From NCBI RefSeq assembly GCF_900167015.1, contig NZ_FUXX01000003.1:1-64000 (forward strand): a stretch of DNA of 64,000 nt, read 5' to 3'. Positions 30,893-39,175 of the stretch are shown one piece after another (positions within the stretch are counted from its first letter, which is position 1; each line of letters opens with the position of its first letter). Under the pieces are notes generated by a model. The model ran no database searches. It saw only the letters and a list, made by a program, of their open reading frames with translations, and was not told the origin of the DNA. The position numbers were made by a program, and so were the translations under genes. The stretch comes from Succinivibrio dextrinosolvens DSM 3072. GTDB lineage: Bacteria > Pseudomonadota > Gammaproteobacteria > Enterobacterales > Succinivibrionaceae.

Positions 30893-32842
30893 TTAAGCTG
30901 ATATCAACTTTAAGGCACGCTTGCCAAGTCCATAGATTTCAGCAATTTTTCTGTCGATCTGATGCCTGATTTTCTCGGCCTCAGCACCGGAGGCTTCCTT
31001 CAGATCATTAACCATGAATTCAATCTGCAGCTGATCATCGGCAGAGGCAATTGGAATTGGCACTTCCTCTAAAAGAGAACGCAGAATCTTGATGGTGTGG
31101 AATTTTCTCTCAAAGTAAAAACGTACCGCACTGGAATTTAGAACAGCACACAGATAAACAGGTGAAAGATTATCAAAACGCGGAATCAGAAAATTACAGC
31201 TGTTTAATGTCAGTCTGCCTTTTTTATCAAGAGCTACAATCGGATACTTTGCAATAAAGCGGTAAACAATTTTTACAGGAGAGCGATAGTACTCAATAGG
31301 AGCAATCTGCTGGAACTTACTCTCCTTAAGATTAACAAAACTCTTAGGGGCTCCAATCTTGAAAGGCTCAATATCCACACCTCTTAAAACAGGTTCATCA
31401 CCAGAGAGAGGCTCACTGTGAACCATTCCGCTGTTTGAACCGGTCACAATACCAAGTGCAAACTGAGCATGACCGCGAAGCTTTACGCAGTGTTCAAAAT
31501 CATCCATCTTGGATAGAACCTTAGCTTCCTGATCGGTGATTCTGAAATTGAAATCAAGAGAGGATCTCTCACGTCTTACAATGTAGGTTGACTCATTGGT
31601 ATTAACAATAACCTCTCCGACTGCACCTGAGTATGAGGTTTTTTCTAAGGTCAGAACCACACTCTGACACTGTACCGCATGGAAAACCTCATCAAGATAT
31701 CTCACAGACTTTACACGCGCATGCATAGAAATGAAGGTTCTGATTAAATCATGAGATGCAACATTCAGGATTGCCTCTGGCAGAACAAACTGCACAATAC
31801 CGCCTTCATCCAGAAGATTTAGGGATCTCTCAACGAATAAGTCTGCAAAGTAAGGTCTGTTCTTTTTAGCCTCTTCTAAAGTTTTTGCGTAGCGTTTGAT
31901 TGCTGCAGGATCATCACAGCTTCCAAAAGGAGGATTGCCCACAATCACATCTGCCTTAGGCAGATTCTTAGAGATAAGAGTGTCTGCCTTTAAAAGATGA
32001 GTGCAGAGAAATTCCTCTGTCAAATCATCCTCTGCCAGCGCAAAATTGATTCTTGCAAGTGATACCGATAAGGAATCAAGATCACAGCCGTACAGATCAT
32101 TTACATCAGCACCTCTTTTCAGAAGTCTTAAAAGGAAGTTGCCAGAGCCGCAGCATGGATCTAAAAACACACGGCCTGATCTGATGGAGATGGTCTCTAA
32201 AGCTGTATCAGTCAGCTCCTGTGGAGTATAGTATCTTCCCTCCTGACGACGGGATGAAAGCTCCATTAAAGAAAGATATATAAGACCTAGGGTATCCTCA
32301 TAAGGAACATAGTGAAGTTCAAACTCAGGAAGATTTCTGCAGGATTTTAAAAGTGAATTCTTTGGAGTCTTGTCAATAAGCTCTAAAAGCAGCCATTCAT
32401 ATCTGCCGATATCCAGTCTTCCCTCAAGATATGCCTTGAAAAAATGGGAACTGACATAGGTATCAAGCTTTTTGGCCTCAACTAAAAGCTGCAGAAAGGA
32501 TTCACACAGAAGAGCTCTGATATAGGTTAGAGTGCTTGAAAAATCCTCAACCAGAATGGACAGAGCTATATGATTGGGTGAATTCTTTGAAATGTAGTTT
32601 ATATACAGTTCCTGAGCTCTGACTGACTGTCTGGAATTAGCAGCAGCACGTCTTCTCTTAAGAGAGTTTCTGCTGCTGATGATGGAGTCAATCTGAGTTT
32701 TTGAAAACTTAAGAGAACCGTCGGCAGAATCATCCTTTATCTTTCCGGTTTTAAGCCAGTTCTTGATTGTAGACAAGGAAACATCCAGCAGATCACAAGT
32801 CTGACCTAATGAAAGAAAATCTGTCTTATGCTGTTCTGCCAT
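30893..32842 (-). CDS. HTH-fused N6-adenine DNA methyltransferase
   Basis: A 649-residue protein that begins with a MerR/excisionase-like helix-turn-helix (about 10-55: LSLGQTCDLLDVSLSTIKNWL) followed by a basic patch KRRRAAANSRQ. The methyltransferase core has motif I FLDPCCGSGNFL (227-238) and the catalytic NPPF (303-306). A TaqI-like C-terminal target-recognition region follows (about 440-640). It resembles type II or IIG-like gamma N6-adenine enzymes but shows no nuclease domain. No restriction partner is adjacent, so it is a solitary methylase, possibly regulatory. An insertion between dnaX and ybaB is suggested by its position. Confidence 0.8.
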   Translation of the reverse strand: MAEQHKTDFLSLGQTCDLLDVSLSTIKNWLKTGKIKDDSADGSLKFSKTQIDSIISSRNSLKRRRAAANSRQSVRAQELYINYISKNSPNHIALSILVEDFSSTLTYIRALLCESFLQLLVEAKKLDTYVSSHFFKAYLEGRLDIGRYEWLLLELIDKTPKNSLLKSCRNLPEFELHYVPYEDTLGLIYLSLMELSSRRQEGRYYTPQELTDTALETISIRSGRVFLDPCCGSGNFLLRLLKRGADVNDLYGCDLDSLSVSLARINFALAEDDLTEEFLCTHLLKADTLISKNLPKADVIVGNPPFGSCDDPAAIKRYAKTLEEAKKNRPYFADLFVERSLNLLDEGGIVQFVLPEAILNVASHDLIRTFISMHARVKSVRYLDEVFHAVQCQSVVLTLEKTSYSGAVGEVIVNTNESTYIVRRERSSLDFNFRITDQEAKVLSKMDDFEHCVKLRGHAQFALGIVTGSNSGMVHSEPLSGDEPVLRGVDIEPFKIGAPKSFVNLKESKFQQIAPIEYYRSPVKIVYRFIAKYPIVALDKKGRLTLNSCNFLIPRFDNLSPVYLCAVLNSSAVRFYFERKFHTIKILRSLLEEVPIPIASADDQLQIEFMVNDLKEASGAEAEKIRHQIDRKIAEIYGLGKRALKLISA

Positions 32843-32964
32843 ATATAAACCGTATTCTGAAATCTGTTTTCTGAAATAATAGCATGTTTATAAAAAAATA
32901 ATAATAAAAAACTTTCAGTTAAATAATTTGTTTTTTAATTTCAGAATATTAAGTAATTTTTAAC

Positions 32965-32998
32965 GACATTAATATTTTTATTACAGACGATTAATGTC
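32965..32998. repeat. Inverted repeat between the methylase start and the ATPase end
   Basis: GACATTAAT (32965-32973) and ATTAATGTC (32990-32998) form a perfect 9-bp inverted repeat with a 16-bp spacer, 12 bp after the ATPase stop on the minus strand. On that strand it is not followed by a T-run. It could be a terminator-like hairpin or a methylase operator. Confidence 0.4.
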
Positions 32999-33010
32999 TT
33001 TATTAGCTTA

Positions 33011-34303
33011 TTACTTCAGAATTCTTTCGTCTAACAGAAACTGCTCAATTCCAACATATAGTATGCCGTGATCGTCATACCATGGTTTCATATAGTCTTT
33101 GACCACAACAATTTTTGAAAACGAGTCAGGAATTCTTGTTAATGATGCGATTTCCTGCTCTTTTTTCTGAGGATCAGAAATACTTAGTGCGGACTGAATA
33201 TAGTATCTGGAGTTACCTCTGTTAACAACAAAATCTACTTCCAGTTGTTTACGAATTTTTTTTCCAGAATCATCTATCGTATTATATTCAACAACACCAA
33301 CATCAACATCAAGACCTCTTCTGATCAGATCAATGTATAGAATGTTCTCCATCAGGTGTGTTTCTTCAAGTTGTCTGAAACCAAGTCTGGCATTACGTAA
33401 TCCGGTATCTAAAAAATAGTATTTAACAGGACTTCCTATATATTTTTTTCCTTTAACATCGTAACGTTTGGCCTTCCTTATCAGGAAAGAATCTTCAAAA
33501 TAGCCAAGATATTTATCTATTGTGTCAGATGTTACCTTTATATTTCTCTCGCTCTTAAAGGTGTTAGAAAGTCTGGTTGGATTTGTTAATGCGCCAATTC
33601 CTGATGCCAGAACATCGAGTAGAATGTCCAAAATTTCCGTATTGCCCTTAATATTATGACGTTCAAGAATGTCTTTAATATAAGTTCGAGAAAACAACTC
33701 TCTTAAATAAAGGCTTTTTTCTTCATGAGATTCTTTTGTTGAGAGAAAAGGCATTCCTCCATATGTATAGTATTCCTGCCATGCAGATCTTTTATCTTCA
33801 GACTCAATATAGAATTCCGCATAAGAAAGTGGATAAACTCTTATTTCATCACCTCTGTCACGAAATTGTGTGAGGATATCTGAGGAAAGCATTTTCGAGT
33901 TACTGCCAGTTATGTAAATATCAGTATTACTCAGCTTCATTAGACCAAGGATAACATCTACAAATGTTATCTTTTCATTTGAATCTTCTACATAAGGATT
34001 CTTTACCTGCGCAACAAACTGGATTTCATCAATAAAGATGTAGTATTTTTTTGAACTGTCTGTCATTCGATCACGAAAGTACTTGTCAAGTTCAAATGGA
34101 TTTCTGTATCTGACGTTTTCAAATACATCTAAAGATAAAGTTAATATTTGTTCCTGATTTATTCCTTTCTCTAAAAGGTAATTTCTGTATAGATTAAACA
34201 GCAGTACAGATTTTCCAGAGCGTCTAAGACCTGTAATAATCTTGATCCTACCATTATCTTTTTTTGAAATAAGTTGTTCTAAATACTGTTGTCTTGGATA
34301 CAT
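33011..34303 (-). CDS. AAA_14/DUF4143 ATPase (first of two)
   Basis: A 430-residue P-loop ATPase. Walker A is GLRRSGKS (25-32), Walker B is YIFIDEIQF (D92, E93), and a sensor-like ITGSNSKML follows. The C-terminal DUF4143 region holds an EVDFVVN motif and then YYIQSAL, where other members have an EVK-like nuclease signature; here Lys is replaced, so nuclease activity is doubtful. The family is common, often multicopy, and has no agreed function. Directly upstream lies an array of seven 74-bp palindromic repeats. The paralogue at 36838 has the same layout with Walker motifs at identical positions. Confidence 0.85.
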   Translation of the reverse strand: MYPRQQYLEQLISKKDNGRIKIITGLRRSGKSVLLFNLYRNYLLEKGINQEQILTLSLDVFENVRYRNPFELDKYFRDRMTDSSKKYYIFIDEIQFVAQVKNPYVEDSNEKITFVDVILGLMKLSNTDIYITGSNSKMLSSDILTQFRDRGDEIRVYPLSYAEFYIESEDKRSAWQEYYTYGGMPFLSTKESHEEKSLYLRELFSRTYIKDILERHNIKGNTEILDILLDVLASGIGALTNPTRLSNTFKSERNIKVTSDTIDKYLGYFEDSFLIRKAKRYDVKGKKYIGSPVKYYFLDTGLRNARLGFRQLEETHLMENILYIDLIRRGLDVDVGVVEYNTIDDSGKKIRKQLEVDFVVNRGNSRYYIQSALSISDPQKKEQEIASLTRIPDSFSKIVVVKDYMKPWYDDHGILYVGIEQFLLDERILK

Positions 34304-34350
34304 ATCAATTACCTTTACTAATCCCCTAATTGTGTTGAATAAGGATTATT

Positions 34351-34820
34351 TGCGGATAACCGCATTTTTATCTTCTATATATAAAAGTATAGCAAAACAT
34401 TTTTAAATGTATAAGATTAATTTGCGGATACCCGCATTTTTACCTTATATCATTACATAGATAAAATAGTTTCATTATACATATACAAGATTAATTTGCG
34501 GATATCCGCACTTTTACCTTATATCATTACATGGATGAAATAGTTTCATTATACATATACAAGATTAATTTGCGGATATCCGCACTTTTACCTTATATCA
34601 TTACATAGATGAAGACATTTCATTATACTTATACAAGATTAATTTGCGGATATCCGCACTTTTACCTTATATCATTACATAGATGAAGACATTTTATTAT
34701 ACTTATACAAGATTAATTTGCGGATATCCGCACTTTTACCTTATATCATTACATAGATGAAGACGTTTCATTATACTTGTACAAGTATTAATTTGCGGAT
34801 AACCGCATTTTTGTCTTATA
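34351..34820. repeat. Array of seven ~74-bp tandem repeats with palindrome TGCGGATATCCGCA
   Basis: The 14-bp palindrome starts at 34351, 34423, 34497, 34571, 34645, 34719 and 34794, spacing 72, 74, 74, 74, 74 and 75 bp. The four inner copies are perfect; copies 1 and 7 have TGCGGATAACCGCA and copy 2 has TGCGGATACCCGCA. The 60 bp between palindromes are also repeated with a few changes, including a second small inverted repeat ATGAAATAGTTTCAT in copy 3. 74 bp is seven helical turns. The array fills the space between the ATPase start and the DnaT-like gene. It has no variable spacers, so it is not a CRISPR. Confidence 0.95.
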
Positions 34821-34845
34821 CCATTCCAAAAAGAAAATAATCTTT

Positions 34846-34885
34846 AAAGACTTAACTATTTCAATTACAAGTTATTAATGTCTTT
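34846..34885 (+). terminator. Possible hairpin plus T-run between the array and the DnaT-like gene
   Basis: AAAGACTTAA (34846-34855) and TTAATGTCTTT (34875-34885) can pair with one bulge and run into a seven-T stretch. It would end transcription coming from the array on the plus strand. The long loop (about 19 nt) makes it weak. Confidence 0.35.
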
Positions 34886-34958
34886 TTTTGAAGCAACCTA
34901 ACTCAAAGAAGTAAAAAAACAATCCAATGTTGTTAAAATAACAGCAAAGGAAAAATCC

Positions 34959-35615
34959 ATGAACGCTACAGAGTTAAACTACCTAAAATCACCTAGACTG
35001 AGTCATATAGCAAAGTCTCTTTATGCCTTTTATCTAAGGGACCTTGCAACACAGGATCAGTGCATTATCGACCTTACAGCCGTTGCCAACTATCTGTATT
35101 CACAGAGTCAGTACTTTCCTACTGTTCCAAACTATCAGATAGCATCAATGTGCCTTGATGAGCTTGAGAATGCAGGTCTAATCAGAAAGCTTAGTGACTC
35201 TGAAAGCTGGCAGGGATGTGTTTTTGAACTTCCTCTTTATGTAAAGATGGAGACAGAAGTCCCTAAGGCACCATTTGCAATGACCACAAAATGGGAACCA
35301 GGTCCAGCCTTCCACAAAATTGCCATTCTCTGCGGTCTTGAAGATTCAAGCTATACACTCACCGATCTGAACGGATTCAGACATTACTGGTGCAGCAAGA
35401 ACGAAAGCAGAAACCAGGTTGGCTGGGAGAGAGCCTTTGCACAGAGACTATTAAAGGCAAGACAGCAGAGGGTTGAAGTAAAGTTCAATACAGAAACTCA
35501 TAATGCCCTTGAGACACCGGCTCAGCAGATGAAACCACAGCAGCCAAGTTCAGAGGAATTAGAAAGACTTCAAAAACAGTCTATGGAAGATTTCCAGAAT
35601 CTATTCGGCAAATAA
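34959..35615 (+). CDS. DnaT-like primosomal domain protein
   Basis: A 218-residue protein. The first 95 residues look like a winged-helix domain (SLYAFYLRDLATQDQ, AVANYLYSQ, ASMCLDELENAGLIRK). Residues about 105-170 (KWEPGPAFHKIAILCGLEDSSYTLTDLNGFRHYW, then VGWERAFAQRLLKARQQR) resemble the ssDNA- and DnaB-binding domain of primosomal protein DnaT. The Gln/Glu-rich tail is low complexity. It may act in replication restart. AAGGA precedes the ATG. The gene lies 22 bp before folP, probably in one transcript. Assignment is by pattern, so moderate. Confidence 0.65.
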   Translation: MNATELNYLKSPRLSHIAKSLYAFYLRDLATQDQCIIDLTAVANYLYSQSQYFPTVPNYQIASMCLDELENAGLIRKLSDSESWQGCVFELPLYVKMETEVPKAPFAMTTKWEPGPAFHKIAILCGLEDSSYTLTDLNGFRHYWCSKNESRNQVGWERAFAQRLLKARQQRVEVKFNTETHNALETPAQQMKPQQPSSEELERLQKQSMEDFQNLFGK

Positions 35616-35637
35616 CAAAACCAACTAAGGATTAAGA

Positions 35638-36471
35638 ATGCAAATCACATGTAAATCAAAAGTACTTGATTTATCTACCCCACAGATCATGGGAATTCTA
35701 AATGTAACTCCAGATTCATTCTCTGACGGCGGACTATGGAACAGTGCCGATAAAGCCCTGGGCCACGCTGTAACCATGTTAAATGAAGGTGCAAGTATCA
35801 TTGATATCGGAGGAGAATCAACTCGTCCTGGAGCTCCAACCGTAAGTGAAGATGAGGAGCTTTCAAGAGTTATTCCTGCAGTTGAAAGAATTGCTAAAGA
35901 AACAGATGCGATTATTTCAGTTGATACCTCTTCACCAGTAGTGATGAGAGAAGCCTGTAAGGCAGGTGCTCATATCTGGAATGATATCAGAGCTCTAAGC
36001 CGTGAAAATGCTGTAGAGACAGCAAAGGAGCTGGATATTCCTGTAATCTTAATGCATATGCAGGGTACACCTCAGGATATGCAGAATGATCCTAACTACA
36101 ACAATGTTGTTGAGCAGGTAAAAAAATTCCTTTTAGATAAGGCTGAGTTCGCTGTTGCTCATGGAATTGACAGAAGCAAGATCATCTTTGATCTTGGATT
36201 TGGCTTTGGTAAAACAGCTGAGCACAATTTCACCCTTCTAAATCATATGCAGGACTTTGTAAATCTGGGCTACCCAGTACTTTCCGCACTATCAAGGAAA
36301 ACCATGATCGGAAGTGCATGCGGTATTAAAGAGCCAGCTCAGAGAGTAATCGGCTCAGTTGCAGGAGCACTCTTAAGTGTTGAAAGAGGTGCTGCTATTG
36401 TCAGAGTTCATGATGTAAAAGAGACAAAGCAGGCTCTTGATGTCTATATGGCAATGAAGGCTACCGCTTAA
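35638..36471 (+). CDS. folP: Dihydropteroate synthase
   Basis: Joins p-aminobenzoate to hydroxymethyl-dihydropterin pyrophosphate, the sulfonamide target step in folate synthesis. The 277-residue TIM-barrel protein shows NVTPDSFSDGG (22-32), GGESTRPGA, the VDTSSP and NDIRAL strands, and the C-terminal VRVHDV motif (SALSRKTMIG between). The partner glmM, often downstream in gammaproteobacteria, is absent. Confidence 0.95.
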   Translation: MQITCKSKVLDLSTPQIMGILNVTPDSFSDGGLWNSADKALGHAVTMLNEGASIIDIGGESTRPGAPTVSEDEELSRVIPAVERIAKETDAIISVDTSSPVVMREACKAGAHIWNDIRALSRENAVETAKELDIPVILMHMQGTPQDMQNDPNYNNVVEQVKKFLLDKAEFAVAHGIDRSKIIFDLGFGFGKTAEHNFTLLNHMQDFVNLGYPVLSALSRKTMIGSACGIKEPAQRVIGSVAGALLSVERGAAIVRVHDVKETKQALDVYMAMKATA

Positions 36472-36523
36472 ATTCTTATCATCAAAAACAGTGAAGCGCT
36501 CTTAACGCACTCACGAATAATCG

Positions 36524-36555
36524 GGGACTTTTGATACTCTGAAAACAAAAGTCCC
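36524..36555 (+). terminator. Hairpin after folP
   Basis: GGGACTTTTG (36524-36533) and CAAAAGTCCC (36546-36555): a perfect 10-bp stem with a 12-nt loop, about 50 bp after the folP stop. No T-run follows; it may end the folP transcript or be a relic element. Confidence 0.5.
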
Positions 36556-36606
36556 ATAGTCTTTAGTGATACCCCCTTATCTCTATTTCTCCAACTAGTC
36601 ATAATC

Positions 36607-36827
36607 AGGTCTTAAAAAATGTGGTATTCAGTCAAAATCAGGTCTTAAAAAATGTAGCATTCACTCAAAATTAGGTCTTAAAAAATGTGGTATTCACTCA
36701 AATTTATGTCTTAAAAAATGTAGTATTCAGTCAAATTTAGGTCTTAAAAAATGTAGTATTCAGTCAAATTTAGGTCTTAAAAAATGTAGTATACTATTAA
36801 GAGAGGTCATAAAATAAAGTTTCTGAG
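36607..36827 (+). repeat. Array of six 33-bp direct repeats, plus a degenerate seventh
   Basis: Copies start at 36607, 36640, 36673, 36706, 36739 and 36772, exactly 33 bp apart. The shared core is AGGTCTTAAAAAATGT followed by GGTATTCAGTCAAAAT-type sequence with few changes (ATGTCTT in copy 4). A seventh, decayed copy starts at 36804 (AGGTCATAAAATAAAG). Each unit holds a six-A tract, so A-tracts recur every 33 bp (about 3.1 helical turns) and may bend the DNA. The last full copy carries TATACT and ends about 34 bp before the ATPase ATG. No spacers, no inverted symmetry. Confidence 0.95.
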
Positions 36828-36837
36828 GTACATGTAA

Positions 36838-38127
36838 ATGCAACGATTTGCAATGGAAAAACTTGTTGAGTGGAAATATAAAAAAAATAGAAAACCTCTT
36901 GTCATAATGGGGGCTCGTCAGGTGGGAAAAACCTGGCTTATGAGGGAATTTGGCAAGAATTATTACAATAAAGTTGCATATATTTCTTTTTATAATAACG
37001 TTCGAATGAAACAAGTATTTGAGCAAGACTACGATATTAAAAGAATCATTTCTGCCATTAATATTGAAGTAGGATTTACTGTTTCCGCAGATGATACCCT
37101 TATTATTTTTGATGAGATCCAAAATGCCCCAAAAGCATTTGAATCATTAAAGTATTTTAATGAAGATGCACCTGAATATCATATCATCGTCGCTGGATCG
37201 CTACTTGGTGTAGCTTTACATGAAGGCATCTCTTATCCTGTTGGAAAAGTTTCAACTCTAAATCTCTATCCTCTTAATTTTAGAGAGTTTTTGTATGCAG
37301 TCGGCGAAACTGAATTGGCAGATGCTCTTAAATCAAAAGATTACGGATTAATAGATTCTTTTTCAGATAAATATATATACCACCTAAAGAACTATATGTA
37401 TGTTGGAGGAATGCCAGAGGCAGTTAAGTCTTTTCTAAATAATAGTGATTACTATGCTGCTAGAGAAGTTCAGAAAGAAATTGTTCTTCAATATAAAGGA
37501 GATTTTGGAAAGCATATTTCTGCGGGTGAATTACCTCGAATTAATATGGTGTGGGACTCTATTCCCATGCAACTGGCAAAAGAAAACAAAAAATTTTTCT
37601 TTGGACAGATAAAAAAAGGAGCACGCAGCTCTGATTTTGAAAAGGCGATACAGTGGCTGACAGATAGTGGTCTAGTTTATCGTGTTCATAAAGTAAATGC
37701 TCCACACATTCCGCTTTCAGCTTACAAAGAACTATCTTTTTTTAAACTGTTTTTTTTAGATATAGGTTTATTAGGTGCAATGAGTGAGCTTGATTTGCAT
37801 GCTATTATTGAAGGAAATAGTTTATTTATTGAATTTAAAGGAGCTTTTACGGAACAGTATGTTCTTCAGCAGATTATAAGTGATACAGAATATACTCCTT
37901 ATTTCTATGGAACAGAATCTGCAACCTTTGAACAGGATTTTCTCATTCAAAAAGGTATGAATGCAGTGCCTATTGAAGTGAAAGCAGAAACTAATACCAG
38001 ATCTCAAAGTCTTAAAGCATTCTTTGATAAATATCATCCAGAGTTGTCTATCAGATTATCTCTTTTGAAATATAAAGAACAGGAATGGATGGTTAATATT
38101 CCTCTTTATGCTGTATGTAATATTTAA
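36838..38127 (+). CDS. AAA_14/DUF4143 ATPase (second of two)
   Basis: A 429-residue P-loop ATPase with Walker A GARQVGKT (25-32), Walker B LIIFDEIQN (D92, E93), and the VAGSLLGVAL sensor region. The C-terminal DUF4143 part ends with QDFLIQKG and PIEVKAE, a PD-(D/E)xK-like arrangement that seems intact here, unlike the first paralogue. A 33-bp repeat array precedes it. GAGG lies nine bases before the ATG. It is not in an operon. Function unknown; candidate roles are DNA-associated ATPase or defence protein, both inference. Confidence 0.85.
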   Translation: MQRFAMEKLVEWKYKKNRKPLVIMGARQVGKTWLMREFGKNYYNKVAYISFYNNVRMKQVFEQDYDIKRIISAINIEVGFTVSADDTLIIFDEIQNAPKAFESLKYFNEDAPEYHIIVAGSLLGVALHEGISYPVGKVSTLNLYPLNFREFLYAVGETELADALKSKDYGLIDSFSDKYIYHLKNYMYVGGMPEAVKSFLNNSDYYAAREVQKEIVLQYKGDFGKHISAGELPRINMVWDSIPMQLAKENKKFFFGQIKKGARSSDFEKAIQWLTDSGLVYRVHKVNAPHIPLSAYKELSFFKLFFLDIGLLGAMSELDLHAIIEGNSLFIEFKGAFTEQYVLQQIISDTEYTPYFYGTESATFEQDFLIQKGMNAVPIEVKAETNTRSQSLKAFFDKYHPELSIRLSLLKYKEQEWMVNIPLYAVCNI

Positions 38128-38377
38128 TTAACTTCAACTTTTAAAAGTTCCGCTTGTATCTGTTATTGTTGAAAAGACCTTCTTTTGATTATTATGAAAT
38201 TTTTACTATTCCTATTTCAAAAGAAGCTCTACTGCTATTGTCAGCTTTCCATATAAGGAATATCATCTTATTAAAAGCTATTAACAGGCTTCGTATACAG
38301 TGAATAATACTAAATCTGATGAATATTCGCCTAATTAAAAACGAATTAAATGAAAAAGTAAAACAGAAGGAGTTTGC

Positions 38378-39175
38378 ATGAATCAGTACAAAACTGTTTT
38401 TGTTACCGGCGCTTCTGCCGGATTTGGAGCAGCAATCGCAAAACTTTTGGCCCAGAACGGTTATAAGGTAATAGCCGGAGCCAGACGCAGAAGCAAATTA
38501 GAAGAGTTAACCGCCTCAAATTCCAATATCTATCCGATTGAACTGGATGTTACTGATGAGAAATCAGTATCTACTCTCCTAAATGACCTGCCTGATGATC
38601 TTAAGAATATCGATGTTCTTATCAACAATGCAGGTTTAGCTTTAGGAACAGATCCTGCCTACAACTGTAAACTTAACGAATGGAAAACCATGGTTGATAC
38701 CAACATCAACGGTATACTGAATATGACCAATGCCATTCTTCCATCAATGGTTAAAAGAAACCATGGTTATATCATTAACCTAGGCTCAACTGCTGGATGC
38801 TGGCCATATCGTGGCGGTAATGTCTATGGCGCAACAAAGGCCTTCGTAGAACAGTTCACCAGAAACCTACGTACAGATCTCAGCGGTACAGCTGTTAAAG
38901 CAACTGTAATAAAACCAGGTCTTTGCGGTAATACAGAGTTTTCAAATGTTAGATTCCATGGTGATGATAAAAAAGCTGCAGCAGTATATCAGGATACAGT
39001 TTCAATCAGTCCTGAGGATATTGCAAATACTGTCCTTTGGCTTTTAAGTACCCCTCCTCACATGAATGTTAACGATATGGAGATAATGCCTGTCTGTCAG
39101 ACCTACGGTGGATTAAGTGTAGTCAGAAATCTTGATCTGAATCAAAAAAAATTAGAGACAAACAGCATGCTGTGA
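38378..39175 (+). CDS. ydfG: Short-chain dehydrogenase, YdfG-like (3-hydroxy acid dehydrogenase)
   Basis: A 265-residue NADP-dependent SDR. The cofactor loop is TGASAGFG (10-17), followed by GARR (NADP preference) and NNAG. The catalytic residues are S137, Y150 and K154 (YGATK). The stretch KPGLCGNTEFSNVRFHGDDKKA resembles E. coli YdfG, which acts on L-allo-threonine, serine and malonic semialdehyde. AAGGAG precedes the ATG. The stop codon lies inside a 10-bp hairpin. Confidence 0.85.
   Translation: MNQYKTVFVTGASAGFGAAIAKLLAQNGYKVIAGARRRSKLEELTASNSNIYPIELDVTDEKSVSTLLNDLPDDLKNIDVLINNAGLALGTDPAYNCKLNEWKTMVDTNINGILNMTNAILPSMVKRNHGYIINLGSTAGCWPYRGGNVYGATKAFVEQFTRNLRTDLSGTAVKATVIKPGLCGNTEFSNVRFHGDDKKAAAVYQDTVSISPEDIANTVLWLLSTPPHMNVNDMEIMPVCQTYGGLSVVRNLDLNQKKLETNSML

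Follow-up and report, generated by a model that had tools for sequence, protein, structure and literature searches.

We analysed a window of 64,000 nucleotides of Succinivibrio dextrinosolvens DSM 3072 (NCBI RefSeq assembly GCF_900167015.1, contig NZ_FUXX01000003.1, positions 1 to 64,000 of the forward strand), which holds two ATPase genes that match AAA_14 and DUF4143 above the curated cut-offs and are each preceded by an array of repeated DNA sites. In front of the first gene (ATPase A), array A has seven copies of a 14-bp dyad, TGCGGnnnnCCGCA, spaced 72–75 bp apart. In front of the second gene (ATPase B), array B has six 33-bp direct units, GTCTTAAAAAATGT. TRF reports the two arrays at 34413–34839 (74 bp, score 638) and 36597–36792 (33 bp, 5.9 copies, score 308), and rows outside these two arrays score 64 or less. 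The preliminary description had placed the arrays about 48 bp and 34 bp from the start codons; we found that the nearest dyad of array A lies 47 bp from the start codon at 34303, and TRF puts the end of array B 45 bp from the ATG at 36838. The observation of two unrelated arrays, one at each ATPase gene, is confirmed, and it is more than chance.

Table 1. Features of the two ATPase loci in the window.
Position	Strand	Feature
32990..34873		1,884-bp insertion holding only ATPase A and array A; empty site in three relatives
32990..33001		Left copy of 12-bp direct repeat ATTAATGTCTTT at the insertion edge
33011..34303	-	ATPase A (type A): AAA_14 + DUF4143, PADLOC PDC-S01; predicted winged helix about 222-297 (our reading of the model); PD-(D/E)XK-like C-terminal domain without the usual ExK lysine (YIQSAL)
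34351..34807		Array A: seven 14-bp dyads, starts 34351, 34423, 34497, 34571, 34645, 34719, 34794
34386..34413	-	Promoter-like TATACA-16-TATACT with TG (consensus match only), between the two dyads nearest the gene (34351-34364 and 34423-34436)
34874..34885		Right copy of 12-bp direct repeat ATTAATGTCTTT
36597..36792	+	Array B: six 33-bp direct units with core GTCTTAAAAAATGTAG, starts 36609, 36642, 36675, 36708, 36741, 36774
36790..36795	+	TATACT, -10-like, directly after the core of the last unit
36838..38127	+	ATPase B (type B): predicted AAA+ 1-190, winged helix 231-306, PD-(D/E)XK-type 307-429 (domain limits are our reading of the model), with E339, E365, D367, E380, K382 invariant or nearly so; PADLOC PDC-S01

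Both proteins match models of the PADLOC phage-defence candidate PDC-S01 over nearly their full length (E 5e-104 and 4e-179; PDLC04787 over residues 1–426 of 430 and PDLC04786 over residues 1–428 of 429); anti-phage activity was not assayed. The structural model (pLDDT 92.4) has an AAA+ core followed by a winged helix and matches STAND structures: the best PDB matches are the archaeal Walker ATPases 2qen (Z 16.7, 264 residues, rmsd 4.2) and 2fna (Z 15.9), followed by CED-4/NLR/Apaf-like proteins (CED-4 at Z about 13–14), and a maltose-system complex, 8bob, appears in a second list, although a shared fold shows no function. These lists brought up no nuclease-domain match, but the C-terminal domain was not folded or searched alone, and a sequence search for relatives of solved structure found none at E 0.01. 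Type B keeps E365, D367, E380 and K382, whereas type A has ExD then YIQ and no lysine at that place, so the residues alone do not settle whether the family as represented here carries a PD-(D/E)XK catalytic site. A search of 32800–38400 against Rfam returned only one match, which was below threshold.

To determine how widely such arrays occur, we examined the DNA upstream of other DUF4143 ATPase genes. In the host genome, 7 of 9 such genes have strong upstream arrays, each with a different unit, and the other two show mainly inverted repeats. The preliminary description had proposed that these ATPases recognise or are controlled by DNA repeats, and had named in advance a repeat frequency no higher than at random genes as the result that would count against this idea. 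The comparison came out the other way: of 230 family members with readable upstream DNA, 96 have a strong direct repeat, as compared to 25 of 648 control genes. We left out genes with under 90, 100 or 120 bp of upstream intergenic DNA (depending on the analysis), proteins under 150 to 350 aa (likewise; the clade-by-clade count kept 288 of 340 hits), duplicates by C-terminal sequence, and control genes sharing an intergenic region with an ATPase (37 in the first two sets and 8 viral in the offset analysis); loci L355–L380 are not among the 230, and the survey did not extend to all PDC-S01 hits, archaea included. Of 11 control rows with ATPase-like periods that we looked at, three (loci L068, L141 and L242) really lie upstream of an ATPase, and the control rates are therefore upper bounds.

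The repeats have sharply defined spacing. A 14-mer match at an offset of exactly 33 bp is present in 60 of 152 ATPase upstreams as compared to 5 of 513 controls from the same loci, at 32 bp in 21 as compared to 4, and at 66 bp in 34 as compared to 2, while at offsets 10–63 other than 23, 32, 33 and 46 the ATPase count is 0–3. Type B units share a core, AAAARTGT(A/G), which is paired 32–33 bp apart in several phyla. When we searched for site pairs with a model of the site, we found pairs at offset 33 in 41 and at offset 32 in 17 of 110 type B upstreams, with 0–1 at the other offsets from 24 to 45. Among 513 controls there were 0 on the gene strand and 1 on the other strand; 5 of the 110 type B upstreams have the pair on the other strand. 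In held-out sets the site pair was present in 10 of 33 relatives, 2 of 16 viral genes and 2 of 7 family-searched clade-0 genes.

The period follows the protein clade. Periods of about 33 bp (71 genes), 23 bp (12 genes), 40 bp (5 genes) and 73–76 bp (4 genes) require 4 changes on the tree for 92 genes, while 200 shuffles gave a mean of 20.2 and a minimum of 17. The sequence of the unit also covaries with protein identity (Mantel r 0.324, p<=0.0005, 55 genes). The partial signal lies in residues 190–230 (p 0.008) and the winged helix (p 0.032), with none in the AAA and nuclease domains as wholes. However, mapping of recognition residues is suggestive only: S265 and S264, at the start of the presumed recognition helix, rank second and sixth, but the best single covarying column, Q390, and the second-best 20-residue window, 371–390, lie in the nuclease domain. 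The arrays are not a property of all DUF4143 genes. Several clades have no strong direct array (0 of 9, 0 of 3 and 0 of 4 in clades 6, 7 and 12), clade 14, which holds two of the host's loci (L007 and L009), has 0 of 5, and strong direct repeats are present in only 51 of 86 clade-0 genes and in 20 of 75 genes of the set found mainly by the family profile. In genome G007, 0 of 14 genes had a TRF array.

Next, we asked how closely each array is tied to its own gene. All matches to the two window units in the host genome with at most 1 mismatch (6 and 7) lie in their own arrays; this was tested for these two units. At 2 mismatches the units also hit three other places each, and at 3 mismatches the B unit is not above its reversed control (52 vs 119). 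Of the 96 genes with strong arrays, 92 have at least two copies upstream, 2 have any copy within 400 bp downstream and 5 have a copy elsewhere in the fetched locus. The insertion that carries ATPase A and array A holds no other ORF of 60 aa or more. An 81%-identical ATPase sits elsewhere in genome G014 with the same dyad type, at a site that is empty in the host genome.

To identify where the arrays lie in relation to promoters, we looked for promoter-like sequences. The last type B core is within 62 bp of the called start in 40 of 54 genes. A –10-like hexamer follows 16 of 39 last sites as compared to 20 of 104 non-last sites, and a Bacteroidota –7-like sequence follows 4 of 39 as compared to 2 of 104, a modest excess. 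In type A relatives, dyad pairs spaced 73–82 bp apart lie around a promoter-like stretch; of 15 loci read by eye, L368 and L370 show no clear pair and L377 and L380 show a single dyad. A generic dyad test by clade gave nothing clear for clade 9 (median z 0.19) and a stricter dyad scan found few, so the type A dyad claim rests on repeated pairs and on sequences read by eye. A two-hexamer promoter scan of the window gave no more matches than shuffled sequence (9 vs a mean of 8.7). The position of the sites fits an operator, but the promoters are predictions, and these data do not decide whether the sites overlap or bracket the gene's own promoter.

Taken together, these data suggest that each ATPase of the array-bearing clades recognises the repeats in front of its own gene through its winged helix and regulates its own promoter, most likely as a repressor; we put the probability of this reading at about 0.72. 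In this view, type B proteins bind head-to-tail sites one every 32–33 bp, and the window's type A binds dyads that bracket the promoter 73–82 bp apart, a layout suited to occlusion or a small DNA loop. The sequences themselves establish the arrays, their enrichment, the clade-fixed period, the covariation of unit and protein, the private units of the two window genes, the joint gain of ATPase A and its array, and a position close to the predicted promoter. In contrast, we infer that the bound protein is the ATPase itself, that the winged helix does the binding, that the effect is repression, and that the nucleotide-switch state, as in STAND proteins, sets binding and so links expression to whatever triggers the ATPase; neither binding nor expression was measured. 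With these limits, the interpretation in the preliminary description is supported, including its expectation that unit sequence would track the ATPase, although it needs narrowing from DUF4143 genes in general to particular clades.

It is possible, but unlikely, that the arrays are operators of another, host-encoded regulator that silences accessory genes and that the ATPase does not bind them. The repeats lie at predicted promoters, and two control genes with MarR-like proteins (our reading of the sequence) carry dyads 33 bp apart in the same genus. However, the nine paralogues of one genome carry different designs (judged by eye), the two window units are private to their genes, the period follows the ATPase tree, the units covary with the ATPase across phyla, and the insertion carries no other gene. 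About equally unlikely, the repeats could be ends or target sites of a mobile element that moves the gene. The clean insertion with 12-bp flanking direct repeats is consistent with this, the site of locus L049 is filled in G014, empty in genome G000 and a remnant in genome G004, L049 and the near-identical viral contigs L361–L363 have a dyad just after the stop codon, and L364 has one 127 bp on. In contrast, only 2 of the 96 genes with strong arrays have a downstream copy (L361–L364 were fetched later and are not in that count), the direct repeats at the edges of the window's insertion are not the dyads, a promoter-like stretch lies between the dyads, and there is no transposase ORF in the insertion.

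A role as iteron-like replication or partition sites for an initiator-like AAA+ protein is very unlikely. The fold matches Cdc6/ORC as well as STAND proteins, and direct repeats beside the gene resemble iterons. However, there are many copies per genome (9 in the host, with different units, and 15 DUF4143 matches in the single 3.47-Mb contig of G014), the arrays are promoter-proximal and as short as two units, and the window genes are not on an autonomously replicating element but in a 115-kb contig beside folP and a methylase gene, with empty sites in relatives. Chance or low-complexity repeats are ruled out, because although the upstream DNA is AT-rich and TRF reports some weak repeats at controls, the sharp 32–33 bp peak is nearly absent in the 513 controls, any repeated 7-mer at 32–34 bp occurs in 63 of 379 controls with GC under 42% as compared to 91 of 152 ATPases, and the period is fixed by clade.

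Among known systems, the closest match is PDC-S01 itself, and in the text on it that we examined no DNA repeat, operator or regulation is described. Literature searches on these families (AAA_14, DUF4143, COG1373, PF13635/PF13173), PDC-S01, guilt-by-embedding, 33-bp direct repeats, STAND and winged-helix proteins and autorepression listed no title, among open-licence papers, that reports these repeats. In defence systems with autoregulated or dedicated repressors (BrxR/CapW, CapR, RptR, C proteins and antitoxins), expression of defence genes is controlled by a cognate DNA-binding protein at the system's own promoter (PMC12255303). There the regulator is a separate protein, while here the effector ATPase and presumed regulator are one polypeptide and the sites form arrays of clade-specific period. 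STAND ATPases that act in transcription (MalT, AfsR) and NLR-like switches share the predicted fold, but those are activators or immune scaffolds and we know of none that is preceded by a self-carried 33-bp array. Archaeal Orc1/Cdc6 genes lie beside their origin repeats and likewise pair an AAA+ protein with a winged helix with a repeat cluster; here there are several paralogues per genome with sites at the predicted promoter, and origin activity was not examined.

A more speculative and improbable possibility is that the array is more than an operator and is the off-switch of a STAND nuclease. Several ATPase molecules would be held together, inactive, on their private array, and destruction or loss of that DNA (host-DNA degradation by a phage, or displacement of the carrying element) or a nucleotide-switch trigger would release and activate them. 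Type A keeps arrays although its nuclease domain lacks the usual catalytic lysine, which argues against this idea. If it were true, the repeat array would be a DNA sensor of infection or of loss of the gene itself.

PDC-S01 is reported as one of the most common defence candidates in prokaryotes, yet its mechanism is unknown. The finding that whole clades carry an apparently protein-specific DNA ligand next to the gene gives many members a ready-made candidate binding site, suggests the winged helix as a sequence reader, suggests how a genome with several paralogues (nine here, with different units) could avoid cross-talk, and offers a sequence signature for annotating family members. If the ATPase switch state controls binding, promoter activity becomes a simple readout of what triggers the system.

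To identify repeat arrays in the window, we ran TRF on its whole length and found two strong arrays and nothing else comparable. Array A holds seven 14-bp dyads 72-75 bp apart and array B holds six 33-bp direct units, and each lies upstream of a gene whose product is AAA_14 + DUF4143 and matches the PADLOC candidate PDC-S01 (ATPase A and ATPase B, respectively). The observation in the preliminary description therefore holds, including its statement that the two designs are unrelated. An N6 DNA methylase gene with a TaqI_C specificity domain and an N-terminal HTH_17 lies directly beside the ATPase A insertion.

Locations of the arrays, ATPase genes and associated features; L numbers are the loci of our collection, and all other positions are in the window
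Feature	Location	Strand
N6 DNA methylase	30893-32842	
Insertion holding ATPase A and array A	32990-34873	
ATPase A	33011-34303	minus
Array A	34351-34807	
Promoter-like TATACA-16-TATACT	34413-34386	minus
Array B	36597-36792	
ATPase B	36838-38127	plus
MarR-looking genes with dyads	L020:2727-3152; L048:19004-19435	
Type A ATPases with a dyad after the stop codon	L049:8934-10416; L361-L364	
66-bp tandem repeat, Prevotella sp. P5-108	L140:1-275	
Circular record, Prevotella nigrescens DSM 13386	L262 (NZ_CP133466.1, 2,630 bp)	
Same ATPase in another strain	L263:2964-7301	
Glaesserella parasuis plasmid; B. cellulosilyticus plasmid	L264:4001-9281; L265	
Remnant of a type A cassette in G004	L355:1307-1460	

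In the host genome, upstream repeats are close to the rule. There are nine DUF4143 genes, and when we read their upstream DNA directly, each had its own repeat design and by eye no two of the nine looked alike. With a TRF score of 60 or more as the cut-off, 7 of 9 have an array; the other two (L007 and L009) show mainly inverted repeats (inverted z 4.0 and 3.3). In contrast, in G007, a 3.3-Mb genome of the same genus with 43 DUF4143 matches, 0 of 14 genes tested had a TRF array, although one of its loci, L052, shows a 74-bp pair.

To determine how widespread the arrays are, we collected DUF4143 ATPases by family search in relatives, by protein alignment in named genomes (80 loci) and viral contigs (34 loci), and by family search in 8 genomes chosen because they hold a type B relative, in the phyla of Lachnoanaerobaculum (61 genomes) and of Bacteroides muris (41), and in the window's own phylum (150), and we added 8 plasmid loci; control genes came from the same loci. 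At an offset of exactly 33 bp, a 14-mer match (at most 2 mismatches) occurs in 60 of 152 ATPase upstreams and 5 of 513 controls, at 32 bp in 21 as compared to 4, and at 66 bp in 34 as compared to 2, while at other offsets from 10 to 63 (23 and 46 apart) it occurs in 0 to 3 of 152. By TRF score of 60 or more, arrays are found in 24 of 66 genes in relatives (controls, 3 of 194), 17 of 65 in named genomes (14 of 254) and 6 of 21 in viral contigs (0 of 65). In the enlarged set, 96 of 230 ATPase genes with at least 90 bp upstream have a strong direct repeat, as compared to 25 of 648 controls (Fisher p 1e-40, which ignores relatedness); in the part found mostly by the family profile (L232-L354, with the 8 plasmid loci), the count is 20 of 75. 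A repeat frequency equal to that of random genes had been named in advance as an outcome that would overturn the proposed link between these ATPases and DNA repeats, and we found the opposite; the interpretation in the preliminary description, that the ATPases recognise or are controlled by such repeats, is thus supported. Some non-ATPase genes also have repeats: two genes that look MarR-like by our reading are preceded by two TTAGTTAGATATCTAACTA-like dyads 33 bp apart (L020 and L048), and in Prevotella sp. P5-108 a 66-bp tandem repeat (TTGTCGCAAATCAAGGGCAAC...) lies before a small gene about 6.6 kb from the nearest ATPase (L140).

We next asked whether the repeat period belongs to the protein clade. 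On a FastTree of 288 ATPases, the large type B clade uses 32-33 or 64-66 bp (51 of 86), the clade of locus L002 uses 23 bp (7 of 8), clade 11 uses 23 or 46 bp (4 of 5), the clade of loci L005 and L008 uses 39-40 bp (5 of 15), and the window's type A clade uses 73-76 bp (4 of 7). In contrast, clades 6, 7 and 12 have none (of 9, 3 and 4) and clade 1 has two of 15 at other periods. Among the 92 genes with one of these periods, the label changes 4 times on the tree, whereas 200 shuffles give a mean of 20.2 and a minimum of 17; four of the 96 genes have other periods.

A weight matrix of type B units shows a rather variable, C/G-containing half and a strongly conserved core AAAARTGT(A/G). Pairs of sites 32-34 bp apart occur in 52 of 110 type B upstreams (5 of 110 on the other strand) and in 0 of 513 controls on the gene strand (1 of 513 on the other). 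When we trained a matrix only on the named-genome loci, we found pairs in 10 of 33 relatives, 2 of 16 viral, 2 of 7 family-searched genes and 0 of 513 controls; pairs in all 110 fall at 33 (41) and 32 (17) and at 0-1 elsewhere from 24 to 45. The same layout is seen in named records, for instance plasmids of Glaesserella parasuis (L264), where the type B ATPase with its array lies directly before type III restriction-modification genes, and of Bacteroides cellulosilyticus (L265), where it lies near HipA toxin genes. The variable half of the unit covaries with protein identity (Mantel r 0.324, 55 genes, p at most 0.0005); partial correlations are positive for residues 190-230 and for the winged helix, and zero for the AAA and nuclease domains as wholes, though one nuclease stretch (371-390) and its column Q390 rank high, so this is modest evidence. 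The last type B core lies within 62 bp of the called start in 40 of 54 genes.

In 15 type A loci read by eye, the usual layout is dyad, promoter-like stretch, dyad, with a spacing of 73-82 bp: L361/L363 (78), L364 (82), L049 (73), Prevotella nigrescens L262 (76), L369 (74) and L379 (76), and weaker pairs in L375, L378 (74), L267 (76) and L376 (78). L377 and L380 show one dyad, and L368 and L370 show no clear pair. In L049 and L361-L364 there is a dyad also after the stop codon, and in L049 the outer dyads are identical over 27 bp. One of the two Prevotella dyads, TGCGTTTTTACGCA, keeps the TGCG...CGCA frame of the window's TGCGGnnnnCCGCA at 47% protein identity. In the window, the promoter-like stretch lies between the two dyads nearest the gene, so array A looks like a tandem amplification of an operator-promoter unit; whether the repeated sites overlap the genes' own promoters was left undecided by our data. 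The L262 circle holds only the type A ATPase and a TaqI-like specificity fragment, and the same ATPase (WP_004367879.1) lies in another strain (L263) between two Eco57I methylase genes beside an Mpi-type invertase, so the circle may be an excision product of a shuffling R-M locus.

Gene and array travel together. We compared the locus with the relatives' genomes G004, G010 and G014, where the order methylase, DnaT-like gene, folP is kept (folP is broken by stops in G010) without ATPase A, ATPase B or arrays between them. The flanks of ATPase A plus array, when joined, align across the junction to these empty sites; the insertion is 1,884 bp with ATTAATGTCTTT at both edges. An 81%-identical ATPase with the same type of dyad sits at another place in G014; that place is empty in the host genome and holds a remnant in G004 (L355), with one dyad followed by the last codons of the ATPase. 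ATPase B, array B and an SDR gene are also absent from the three relatives; however, those edges are not clean. In the host genome, all matches with at most one mismatch to the B unit (6) and the A dyad (7) lie in their own arrays. Over the 96 genes with strong arrays, 92 have two or more unit copies upstream, 2 have any within 400 bp downstream and 5 have any elsewhere in the fetched locus.

The type B model (pLDDT 92.4) has an AAA+ core, a winged helix at 231-306 and a PD-(D/E)XK-type domain with E365, D367, E380 and K382 invariant or nearly so in 100 sequences; the domain limits are our reading of the model. Structural comparison with VIA-align puts archaeal Walker ATPases first (2qen Z 16.7, 264 residues, rmsd 4.2), then CED-4 and NLR proteins (Z about 13-14) and Cdc6/ORC (about 11). 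The type A model is weaker (pLDDT 76.5, 5 sequences) but shows a similar winged-helix region, and its C-terminal motif is ExDF...YIQ without the lysine.

PDC-S01 has been called the fourth most common defence across all prokaryotes, with validation of most PDCs pending (PMC12988326), and the most frequent individual locus in a rumen set (PMC13356809). Our literature searches, which covered open-licence PMC papers only, found no report of these arrays. Autoregulation as such is already known; an effector ATPase with self-carried arrays of clade-fixed geometry is, to our knowledge, new.

Taken together, these data suggest that the ATPase itself is the reader of its array, which best explains private units, clade-fixed spacing, covariation and a cargo of one gene. 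Those four features were observed in the sequences, whereas recognition by the ATPase and its effect on expression are inferred, as neither binding nor transcription was measured. We consider self-recognition very likely, and we put about 0.72 on self-recognition with autoregulation, mainly repression; sites on, around or just after the predicted promoter at varying distance suit repression better than activation. The finding that type A keeps its array with a nuclease domain that lacks the usual lysine suggests that the array serves DNA binding and expression rather than nuclease activity as such.
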